This document shows positions 1,840-7,443 of a stretch of DNA of 34,404 nt, piece by piece. The notes under the pieces are model-generated. The model did no database searches, was not told the DNA's origin, and saw nothing but the letters and a program-made list of their open reading frames with translations. The stretch comes from Nocardiopsis sp. (GTDB lineage Bacteria; Actinomycetota; Actinomycetes; Streptosporangiales; Streptosporangiaceae): assembly GCA_021154785.1 (NCBI GenBank), contig JAJKHX010000570.1, forward strand, positions 1 through 34,404, given 5' to 3'. Every line of letters begins with the position of its first letter. Positions within the stretch are counted from its first letter, which is position 1. Both the position numbers and the translations under genes were made by a program.

Positions 1840-3363
<1,524 letters not shown>

Positions 3364-3418
3364 CCTCGCCCCTCTCAGGCACCGGGCCTTAGCAGACTGA
3401 CCCGTGCCATACCGGCCT

Positions 3419-3445
3419 GTGAGACATATATTAAGTATGTTTCAC
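3419..3445. promoter_or_regulatory. Candidate operator: 10-bp inverted repeat (one mismatch), 7-nt spacer, in divergent promoter
   Basis: GTGAGACATA-TATTAAG-TATGTTTCAC; AT-rich island between divergent starts at 3363(-) and 3495(+). Confidence 0.6.
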
Positions 3446-3494
3446 CCACGTTGCCTAGGCCGTTGCCGCAGGCGACGCGAGCGAAGGGACCAGC

Positions 3495-4346
3495 ATGATG
3501 TACCTCGTTCGGGGAACTTCCCGGGAAACCGGCGGCGCGGACGGCCCCGCCCGGCCCGCCCAGAACCGGCCAGCCCGGAGCAGGTCAGCGGGCAAGCCGG
3601 CCACCGGGCTGCTGCTGACCGAGCCGCTGCGCGGCCTGGCCGACCTGGGCGCGCTGCTGCTGGCGACACCCGGCCTGCTGGCCGCCCCGCGCGGCGACGG
3701 CCACGGGGTGCTGGTCTTCCCCGGCCTGCTGGCCGGCGACGCGAGCACGGTGCCGCTGCGCGCGTTCCTGCGCTGGCTCGGCTACGACGTCCGGGGATGG
3801 GACCTCGGCCGTAACCACGGACCGACCGAGGCGATACTGGCCGGCCTGCCCCAGGCCGTCCTCGATCATGCCGAACGAACTGGCCGTCCCGTATCGCTGA
3901 TCGGCTGGAGCCTCGGCGGCATCTACGCCCGGGAGATGGCACGCCGTCATCCCCGGCAGGTTCGCCAGGTCATCACGCTGGGCAGTCCCTACGCCATGCG
4001 CGACCCGAGGCAGTCTCACGCCGAGGGTCCTTACCGGCGGCTGCGGTCGCTGCACGCTCCCGGGGCCAGGCTGCCCCGTCCGGAGGTGCGGGCCCGGCCC
4101 ATCGGCGTGCCGTCCACGTCGGTCTACTCCCGCTGGGACGGCGTCGTGGCCTGGCAGGCGTGCGTCGAGCCGCCGACCCCGCTGCACCAGAACGTCGAAG
4201 TCCGGTGCAGCCACCTCGGCTTCGGCGTGGACCCGGCGACGCTCTGGCTGATCGCCGACCGGCTCGCCGTCCCGGCGGGCCAGCGGATCCCGTTCCGCCC
4301 GCCGTTCGCCCTCCGTCCCCTCTACCCGGCGGTGAGTGCGCGATGA
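3495..4346 (+). CDS. Alpha/beta hydrolase (lipase/esterase-like)
   Basis: 283 aa; GWSLGG nucleophile elbow (LIGWSLGGIYAREMARRHP), SRWDGVVAW acid region, RCSHLGFGVDP His region. Confidence 0.8.
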   Translation: MMYLVRGTSRETGGADGPARPAQNRPARSRSAGKPATGLLLTEPLRGLADLGALLLATPGLLAAPRGDGHGVLVFPGLLAGDASTVPLRAFLRWLGYDVRGWDLGRNHGPTEAILAGLPQAVLDHAERTGRPVSLIGWSLGGIYAREMARRHPRQVRQVITLGSPYAMRDPRQSHAEGPYRRLRSLHAPGARLPRPEVRARPIGVPSTSVYSRWDGVVAWQACVEPPTPLHQNVEVRCSHLGFGVDPATLWLIADRLAVPAGQRIPFRPPFALRPLYPAVSAR

Positions 4347-5356
4347 CCAGCACTGTGCCGGCCACCAGGACGGCACCGTGGTCGTTCGCGGCCCCGTGGG
4401 GAGCGCGCGGCTTCGTCACCGACCTCGACGGGCCTGATCACGATGGGCCGGTGCACTGGATCGAATTCGAGGGCAGCGGGGAACCCGCCGGCGACACGAC
4501 GCCGATCGTGTTCGTGCACGGCCTGGGCGGCTCGCACCTGAACTGGTGCCTGATCGGCCCCCAGCTGGCGGCGGGCCGCCGCGCGGTCGCGCTGGACCTG
4601 CACGGGTTCGGCCTGACCCCGGGCACCCGCACGAACTCCACCGTCCAGCGCAACACCAGGCTGCTCGACCGGTTCGTGCGGGAGGTGGTCGGCCGGCCGG
4701 TGATCCTGGCCGGGAACTCCATGGGCGGCCTGATCTCGATCCTGCAGGCCTCCGCCGCGCCGGAGATGGTCCGCGGGCTGGTGCTGCTCGACCCGGCCCT
4801 GCCGCTGCCGGCGCGCAGGCCCGACCGGCAGGTGGCCAGCCAGTTCCTGATGTACGCACTGCCCGGCATCGGCGAGCTGTACCTGCGGTCCGTGCAGTCG
4901 CGCCGCGCACCGCAGGTCGCGGTCCAGCAGGTCATCGAGCTCTGCTTCGCCGACCCGTCCCGGGCCGACCCGGCCATGGTGACCGCGTCGATAGCGCTGG
5001 CCGCCGAGCGCCAGGGCGCCGCGGGGGCCGGAGCCGAGGCCTTCCTGGCCGCGTCTCGCTCGCTGATGCGGGTGGTCGGCCCGCGGTGGCGTTACTTGGG
5101 GATGATGGCCTCGGTACGGGTCCCGGTCCTGCTCGTCGGCGGTGAGGCCGACCGGCTGGTGCCGGTCGCGAGCACCCGGCAGGCGGCGGCCCGCAACCCT
5201 CGCTGGGAAAGCGTTATCCTGCCCGGAGTCGGGCATACGCCGCAGCTCGAGGTGCCCGGTAAGGTCACCGGCACGATCCAGGACTGGCTGGGCCGGCACT
5301 TTGCCCCGGCCGCAGGCTTAGGAGGAACGGGACATGCAGCAGCTCTCCGGCCTTGA
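4343..5356 (+). CDS. Alpha/beta fold hydrolase
   Basis: In-frame ATG at 4343 overlaps the previous stop (ATGA). VFVHGLGGSHLNW, GNSMGGLISIL, GGEADRLVPV and GVGHTPQLEVP form the canonical triad context. The ORF-track start at 4160 lies inside the upstream gene. Confidence 0.88.
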   Translation: MTSTVPATRTAPWSFAAPWGARGFVTDLDGPDHDGPVHWIEFEGSGEPAGDTTPIVFVHGLGGSHLNWCLIGPQLAAGRRAVALDLHGFGLTPGTRTNSTVQRNTRLLDRFVREVVGRPVILAGNSMGGLISILQASAAPEMVRGLVLLDPALPLPARRPDRQVASQFLMYALPGIGELYLRSVQSRRAPQVAVQQVIELCFADPSRADPAMVTASIALAAERQGAAGAGAEAFLAASRSLMRVVGPRWRYLGMMASVRVPVLLVGGEADRLVPVASTRQAAARNPRWESVILPGVGHTPQLEVPGKVTGTIQDWLGRHFAPAAGLGGTGHAAALRP

Positions 5357-6782
5357 CGCCTCCTTCCTGGCCATGGAGACGGCCAACACCACCGGCCACG
5401 TCGGCGGGCTGAGCGTACTCGACCCCAGCGACGCGCCGACGCCGCTGAACCTGGCCCGGCTCACCGAGGTCATGGCCGAGCGACTGCCGCTCGTGCCGGT
5501 CCTGCGGCAAAAGCTGCTCGAGGTGCCGCTCGGCCTAGACCAGCCCTACTGGGTCGACGACCCGCACTTCGACATCGAGTATCACGTCCGCGAGATCGCG
5601 CTGCCCCGTCCGGGCTCCGACGCGCAGCTGAACGAGCAGGTCAGCCGGCTGCACGCCCGGCCGCTCGACCGCAGCAAGCCGCTGTGGGAGCTCTACCTGA
5701 TCACCGGGCTGGCCAAGAAGCGCGCCGCCGTCTACACCAAGATCCACCACGCCGCGATCGACGGCGCCTCCGGCGTGGAACTGCTCACCGTCTTGTTCGA
5801 CCTCAGCCCGGCCGGCCGCGACCTGCCCCCGGCCGAGCCGTTCCGGGCGGCCGCCGCGCCGCCGCTGCCCGCGCTGGCCGCCAAGGCGGCGGCCCGGCTG
5901 GCCTGGCGCCCGGTGCAGACCGCGCGGATCACCAGCGAACTGGTCAAGGTGATCCCCACCCTCGCCCCGGCGGTGAACGCGCTGGTCGGCAACATGCTCG
6001 GGCTGAACCGCGGGGACGGGACGGTGATCTCCACCCGGCCCGGGCGAGCGCCCGCGACGCCGTTCAACCGGTCCATCACGCCGCACCGCCGGTTCGCGTT
6101 CCGCACCGTGGACCTGGCCACGGTCAAGATGGTGAAGAACGCGTTCGGCGTGTCCGTCAATGACGTCGTGATGGCGATGTGCGCCGGGGCGCTGCGGCGC
6201 TGGCTCCTCGATCACGACGCGCTGCCCGACCAGCCGCTGATCGCGATGATCCCGGTGTCCGTGCGGGACCCGTCCAGCAAGGGCGCGCTGGGAAACCGGG
6301 TGTCCGCGATGCTGGCCCCGCTGCCCACCAGCGTCACCGATCCGGCCCTGCGGCTCCAGGTGGTGCACGCCGCCACCCAGGTGGCCAAGGCCCAGCAGGC
6401 CGCGATCCCGCAGGGCCTGGTCGACCAGATCAGCGACTTCGCCGTGCCCGCGCTGGCCGCCCGGGCGGCCCGGGTGGTGTTCGCCACCGGCGTCCTGCAC
6501 CGGCTGCCGCCGTTCAACATCACCATCTCGAACGTCCCCGGCCCGAACACCCAGGTCTACCTGTGCGGGGCCCGGCTCCTGGCGCACTACCCGGTGTCGG
6601 TCGTCACCGACGGCCAGGGCCTGAACATCACCTTGGTCGGTTACCTTGGCCAGCTGCACTTCGGCCTGATCAGCTGCCGTGAGCTCGTCCCGGATATCGA
6701 CGTCCTGGCCGGCTACCTGACCGACGAGCTCGCCCTCCTCGAGCAGGCGGCGAAAGAGCGAATCGCCGATGCCGCGCCCTGA
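5334..6782 (+). CDS. Wax ester synthase / acyl-CoA:diacylglycerol acyltransferase (WS/DGAT)
   Basis: 482 aa; MQQLSGLDASFLAMET start, active-site HHxxxDG (KIHHAAIDGASG), FNITISNVPGP motif. Confidence 0.95.
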   Translation: MQQLSGLDASFLAMETANTTGHVGGLSVLDPSDAPTPLNLARLTEVMAERLPLVPVLRQKLLEVPLGLDQPYWVDDPHFDIEYHVREIALPRPGSDAQLNEQVSRLHARPLDRSKPLWELYLITGLAKKRAAVYTKIHHAAIDGASGVELLTVLFDLSPAGRDLPPAEPFRAAAAPPLPALAAKAAARLAWRPVQTARITSELVKVIPTLAPAVNALVGNMLGLNRGDGTVISTRPGRAPATPFNRSITPHRRFAFRTVDLATVKMVKNAFGVSVNDVVMAMCAGALRRWLLDHDALPDQPLIAMIPVSVRDPSSKGALGNRVSAMLAPLPTSVTDPALRLQVVHAATQVAKAQQAAIPQGLVDQISDFAVPALAARAARVVFATGVLHRLPPFNITISNVPGPNTQVYLCGARLLAHYPVSVVTDGQGLNITLVGYLGQLHFGLISCRELVPDIDVLAGYLTDELALLEQAAKERIADAAP

Positions 6783-7443
6783 CCGCGGCCCTGACAGCAG
6801 TCCCGGCCACGGTGCCGGCGACGGTGCCGGTGACGCCCGGGCGATCGTGCCCGGGGGAGCGGCGGCGCCCGCCGCGATCCCGGCCGAGATCTTCACCGCG
6901 GCCGTGGACGCCTTCGCGGCCGGGCAGCGACTGGACATGCGGTCGCTGGCCGGCCGCCTCGGCGTCGCCCGCGCCACCCTGTACCGGCGGGCCGGCAACC
7001 GCGAGCACCTGCTCGACGAGGTGCTGTGGTGGCGCGCCCGCCGGCTGCTCGTGGACCAGATCCAGGCCAGCGGGTCGCTAGCGGGCACCGAGCGCCTGGT
7101 CGCGGTGATCGGCGGGGTCGTCCGCGCCATTGCCACCGACCGCCCGCTGCGGGTGTTCCTCGAATCCGACCCGGAGACCGCGCTGCGCCTGCTCACCGGC
7201 ACCCGCAGCACCGTCCACCGCGGCATGGCCACCGCGCTGGAGAAGCTCATCGACCTCGAGCGCAGCCGCGGCTGCTTCGAAGCCGCCCTGGACACCCCGA
7301 CGCTGGCCTACGCGATCGTCCGCCTCAGCGAGGGCTTCCTCTACGCCGACCCGATCGCGGACCGCGTTCCCGACATCGACCGCGCCGTCACCCTGGTCCA
7401 CGCCCTCCTCACCGGCCTAGACCGCCGCTCCGCCCCCGTCTAG
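6769..7443 (+). CDS. TetR-like transcriptional regulator (possibly QsdR-type C-terminal)
   Basis: HTH text DMRSLAGRLGVARATLYRRAGNREHLLDEVLWWRARRLL; overlaps the WS/DGAT 3' end by 14 bp. Confidence 0.85.
   Translation: MPRPDRGPDSSPGHGAGDGAGDARAIVPGGAAAPAAIPAEIFTAAVDAFAAGQRLDMRSLAGRLGVARATLYRRAGNREHLLDEVLWWRARRLLVDQIQASGSLAGTERLVAVIGGVVRAIATDRPLRVFLESDPETALRLLTGTRSTVHRGMATALEKLIDLERSRGCFEAALDTPTLAYAIVRLSEGFLYADPIADRVPDIDRAVTLVHALLTGLDRRSAPV

Follow-up and report, generated by a model that had tools for sequence, protein, structure and literature searches.

The 27-bp palindrome at positions 3419-3445 of the window (the whole stretch of 34,404 nucleotides of Nocardiopsis sp. DNA that was analysed) is very probably the operator of a TetR repressor of the QsdR type, the product of the rightward operon's last gene. 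This reading draws on the sequence, on how it is conserved, on the family to which the regulator belongs and on a design identical to that of the QsdR site; from these we infer binding by the regulator, repression, the promoter positions and the class of ligand. As judged from sequence comparison, the element is most likely a known kind of repressor site, that of the QsdR family, in a new setting, a wax-ester/storage-lipid operon. To our knowledge, the QsdR repressor has until now been known only from bacteria that destroy the chemical signals of other bacteria. The locus comprises the following parts:

1840-3363, minus strand: long-chain acyl-CoA synthetase (ACS), divergent from the operon; PRK06187 subfamily, above cutoff
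3419-3445, no strand: proposed operator of the TetR/QsdR-type regulator, 27-bp palindrome, from sequence and conservation
3420-3426, plus strand: left half-site TGAGACA; invariant in nine loci and the same as the half-site of QsdR orthologues
3427-3432, plus strand: candidate -10 TATATT of the rightward operon, inside the operator spacer, placed by alignment
3428-3433, minus strand: candidate -10 TAATAT of the leftward ACS promoter, inside the operator spacer, placed by alignment
3438-3444, plus strand: right half-site TGTTTCA; TGTATCA in relatives, TGTCTCA in QsdR orthologues
3452-3457, minus strand: candidate -35 of the ACS promoter, TAGGCA (TGCCTA on the plus strand); invariant in nine loci, role putative
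3495-4346, plus strand: HYD1, alpha/beta-hydrolase-like protein, first gene of the operon; weak Pfam match
4343-5356, plus strand: HYD2, alpha/beta hydrolase; absent from the operon in the five other relatives with the TetR gene
5334-6782, plus strand: wax ester synthase/diacylglycerol acyltransferase (WS/DGAT); TIGR02946, above cutoff
6769-7443, plus strand: QsdR-type TetR regulator (PF18598, TetR_C_36), last gene of the operon; overlaps WS/DGAT by 14 bp

Only some relatives, among them G133, G135 and Kutzneria, have HYD2 in the position between HYD1 and WS/DGAT. The rightward candidate -10 position reads TANNNT in eight of nine loci, and a promoter scan pairs TATATT with a weak -35. On the other strand, TAGGCA/TGCCTA is located 17-18 bp from the minus-strand TANNNT (the leftward -10) in most loci and, given this spacing and its invariance, TGCCTA may be the leftward -35. 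At the left end of the window, a long reading frame (27-1838) combines a C-terminal part resembling thiolase with an enoyl-CoA hydratase domain; it stops 1 bp before the end of the convergent ACS gene and is possibly cut by the contig start.

The palindrome, GTGAGACATATATTAAGTATGTTTCAC, occupies exactly 3419-3445 and consists of 10-bp arms with one mismatch and a 7-bp loop. The divergent ACS gene and the rightward operon are separated by a 131-bp gap (3364-3494), with the palindrome close to its centre; the palindrome is 70% A+T, as against 71% G+C (29% A+T) for the window. The original prediction had described it in these terms, as a 27-bp palindrome with 10-bp arms and one mismatch, as an AT-rich island in GC-rich DNA and as centred in the 131-bp divergent promoter, and had placed a TetR-like regulator in the last gene of the rightward operon, all of which was borne out, the regulator being the PF18598 protein of 6769-7443. 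As a bare palindrome the element is unremarkable, and its significance comes above all from its conservation, together with its A+T-rich composition and intergenic position. Counting inverted repeats with 10-bp arms, up to one mismatch and gaps of 0-12 (each nested register on its own), we obtained 103 in the window and 33-76 in shuffled windows, while a comparable inverted repeat arose in 3.3% of dinucleotide shuffles of the intergenic gap; as these figures are not beyond chance, the palindrome count was rejected as evidence. Across the 6.68-Mb, 74%-complete genome the pattern has this sole match at up to three mismatches and no second exact operator-type site was found, so the palindrome is essentially single-copy, as expected for a local regulator of the TetR type.

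The regulator has 224 amino acids and matches PF18598 at 103.1 bits (cutoff 33.7), QsdR itself scoring 82.7 bits. Its nearest solved relative by sequence is QsdR of Rhodococcus erythropolis (PDB 4za6, E 1.6e-16), and the same structure came first when an AlphaFold2 model of the protein (mean pLDDT 85) was searched with Foldseek (E 2.9e-8, TM 0.70/0.82; next match 5e-4). The recognition helix R-A-T-L-Y-R and the linker residue Gly45 are conserved between the two proteins. Arg96, which in QsdR hydrogen-bonds the lactone carbonyl in docking (residue roles according to the main texts of PMC6262395 and PMC4640858), is present in the window protein and its five orthologues, although not in all near QsdR orthologues, and in the pocket Ala and Asp stand where QsdR has Phe106 and Pro161. 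Moreover, the linked PTE-type lactonase (QsdA) that characterizes QsdR proper is missing beside the window gene, where hydrolases of another fold and WS/DGAT are found instead. The regulator is a QsdR-type TetR protein, a relative within the subfamily and not a QsdR orthologue.

We collected QsdR orthologues at 52-100% identity; in nearly all of them TGAGACA-N11-TGTCTCA lies in the qsdA-qsdR gap or precedes the qsdR orthologue. The sequence is exact between qsdA and qsdR in five loci with 99-100% identical QsdR; the gene order in locus L227 is qsdC-qsdA-site-qsdR. In an electrophoretic mobility shift assay described in the main text of PMC6262395, QsdR shifts a 170-bp fragment of the qsdA-qsdR intergenic region and homoserine lactone releases it. 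That text mentions two inverted repeats in the region without mapping an operator, and reports 5'RACE starts of both qsd promoters 43 and 104 bp before the start codons; these starts map inside the L227 palindrome, the second with an uncertainty of one base. No QsdR footprint was found in the main texts of PMC6262395, PMC6476934 and PMC4640858. The window site therefore shares its half-site and spacing with a region to which the best-studied subfamily member binds, which strengthens the link between the TetR protein and the proposed operator.

To follow the locus through other genomes, we used six-frame searches, which recovered orthologues of the TetR protein (about 57-71% identity) in five other genomes, each time behind HYD1 and WS/DGAT; the named relatives sharing the locus are mostly labelled Streptosporangiaceae. 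A contig search with short exact peptides of the window protein gave no match, such peptides of one sequence being too specific, and no relatives of the TetR protein or of QsdR were found in a plasmid search. The core TGAGACA-N11-TGTWTCA is exact upstream of HYD1 in all six loci that encode the regulator, with the right arm TGTTTCA in the window and TGTATCA in the other five. The test named with the original prediction was whether relatives sharing the gene order conserve the palindrome, and each of the five other HYD1-WS/DGAT-TetR loci keeps the core. Over seven intact sites (the window, the five other loci with the gene and G131), 13 of the 14 half-site positions (93%) are invariant, compared with 27% in the spacer and with 4% and 7.5% in the left and right flanks. 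This pattern of conservation bears on a reading in which the palindrome functions at the RNA level, as a leader hairpin for termination or attenuation. Although 10-bp arms with a 7-nt loop would suit a hairpin, no Rfam match and no terminator-like site appeared in the scans, and the relatives keep a G-A mismatch at the fourth half-site base (TGAGACA/TGTATCA) uncompensated, that is, the letters are conserved and the pairing is not. In the QsdR system, moreover, transcription starts inside the palindrome, which is therefore not fully transcribed there. We regard the RNA reading as extremely improbable.

The operator reading gains further from the loci that have lost the regulator. A search with HYD1 recovered 12 Streptosporangiaceae genomes, six with an adjacent TetR gene and six without, absence being judged from contigs of incomplete genomes. 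The site is intact in 6/6 HYD1 loci with the gene and in 1/6 without it (one-sided exact p 0.0076, a value that ignores kinship). There is no site in G019, G118 and G120, the last of which also lacks WS/DGAT at this position, while the sister genomes G133 and G135 retain the left arm and show a right arm decayed to TCCATCA. The exception is G131, with an intact site despite having no adjacent TetR gene. In a WS/DGAT tree G131 groups with G133 and G135 with moderate support (88/86), G133 and G135 being strongly supported as a pair, and this grouping fits a single loss of the regulator followed by decay of the site. A QsdR-like paralogue encoded elsewhere in G131 has TGCAACA-N11-TGTATCA just upstream of its own gene, the right half of which equals the right half of the lipid-operon site, so it is possible that this distant paralogue uses the lipid-operon site. 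HYD1-WS/DGAT operons beyond the family that have no TetR gene (Kutzneria, Nostocoides and others) also lack the site. The exception is a metagenome-assembled genome labelled Aeromicrobium (locus L124), which contains HYD1-HYD2-WS/DGAT and, at 3186-3210, a one-mismatch operator, TGAGACA-N11-TGTATTA; no QsdR-type gene was found in the 11 kb covered.

The intact site of G131 could also mean that the palindrome is the operator of a regulator encoded elsewhere, with the linked TetR protein acting on other targets. A TetR gene beside a P450 gene in G014 points the same way: it has a similar palindrome (GAGACATAC..GTATGTTTC), and the sequence in this divergent P450/TetR promoter, GAGACATACGCTGTGTATGTTTC (contig C242, locus L229, about 4413-4437), is very like that of the window, although the TetR protein belongs to a subfamily other than the QsdR type. 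The motif alone therefore does not name its regulator. Near some of the other pattern matches in relatives (G024 C291, G014 C242, G029 C841 and G022 C45) we found no QsdR-type gene. Nevertheless, the site is intact in every locus that encodes the linked regulator and decayed or absent in five of the six that do not, its design is identical to that of the QsdR intergenic site, and the genome contains no second exact copy, all of which make control from elsewhere improbable. Even less likely is that the block is conserved mainly as overlapping promoter sequence (-10 elements), the dyad being incidental. The spacer TANNNT and the TGCCTA 7-8 bp downstream are indeed conserved, also in G131, G133 and G135 where the TetR gene is missing; however, conservation is highest in the half-sites on either side of the -10, it is in the right arm that loci lacking the TetR gene show decay, and QsdR orthologues keep the half-sites around a quite different spacer.

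We also looked for the half-site among more distant members of the family. TGNNACA-N8..13-TGTNNCA, with at most one mismatch, lies upstream of the paralogue's own gene in 9 of 19 distant non-Streptomyces paralogues, where 0.33 were expected and 200 shuffles gave three or fewer, in a test that is partly post hoc because some of these loci had first drawn attention to the half-site. Independent evidence, from outside the paralogue set that suggested the motif, comes from the QsdR loci and the G131 paralogue. The palindrome was found in none of 18 family members of presumed Streptomyces type, a label taken from sequence similarity, and this result counts against the operator reading. In three loci of QsdR-like paralogues (L013, L016 and L017) two operator-like palindromes occur 29 bp apart upstream of the TetR gene, an arrangement that suggests two dimers.

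In the mechanism that we propose, a TetR dimer would read two TGAGACA-type half-sites 11 bp apart and cover the shared -10/start region of both divergent promoters. It would thereby repress the HYD1-HYD2-WS/DGAT-tetR operon, including its own gene, and also the ACS gene in the window locus and wherever that gene is divergent. A small carbonyl-containing metabolite would free the protein from the operator, and fatty-acid activation and wax-ester/triacylglycerol synthesis would be switched on together. The original prediction of an autoregulated site for the linked TetR protein is supported by all six loci encoding the regulator and by the QsdR match. Of the dual control that it foresaw, the lipid operon stands as the constant target; control of ACS, deduced from position, is less general. 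The divergent ACS gene is intact in 7 of the 12 loci, and two loci with the TetR gene keep the site without an intact copy: in G036 a decayed remnant is left, and in G012 the gene is missing next to the operon. This makes the lipid operon (including the regulator) the more general target. The remnant in G036 (contig C28, locus L022) is located at 685-960 on the minus strand, next to the intact operator. On the other hand, the presence of the site tracks the divergent ACS gene to some extent, which counts against the operator reading. Regarding the ligand, an acyl-CoA is possible but unsupported, the studied relative QsdR responding to gamma-lactones; by analogy with QsdR, and given Arg96, a lactone or other carbonyl compound is suggested. 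We also consider, tentatively and as rather unlikely, that a lactone- or ester-sensing regulator of the quorum-quenching QsdR family was taken over for storage-lipid control, in which case wax-ester/triacylglycerol formation would be induced by a carbonyl metabolite (lactone, hydroxy-acid derivative or ester) and not by acyl-CoA.

The consensus TGAGACA-N11-TGTYTCA, derived in the present analysis, gives the QsdR-type (TetR_C_36) repressors a concrete putative operator and also pinpoints a probable binding site in the qsd promoter. If the operator reading holds, the QsdR subfamily would serve storage-lipid synthesis in addition to quorum-signal degradation; the reading also makes WS/DGAT regulation in uncultured soil Streptosporangiaceae directly testable.

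Finally, we compared the proposed system with known ones. The KstR/FasR-type TetR repressors of mycobacteria control lipid genes through palindromic operators, as proposed for the window, with only distant structural similarity to its regulator. FadR of Bacillus (5gp9, 3whc), a regulator that responds to acyl-CoA, shares the TetR fold and the control of fatty-acid genes and is a plausible functional analogue, although its match to the regulator is much weaker (phmmer 0.005; Foldseek 8.6e-4). The QsdR system differs from that of the window in its targets, the lactonase QsdA in the former and, as proposed, WS/DGAT and hydrolases in the latter; in the position of the regulator gene, divergent from the repressed operon in one and last in the operon in the other; in the pocket, where Phe106 and Pro161 face Ala and Asp; and in the acyl-CoA synthetase, that of the window being only about 35% identical to QsdC. 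Nevertheless, the two have in common the TetR subfamily PF18598, the helix core R-A-T-L-Y-R, Arg96 and Gly45, an identical left half-site, the 11-bp spacing, an operator in a divergent gap and an acyl-CoA ligase among the targets, which for the window are those proposed here.
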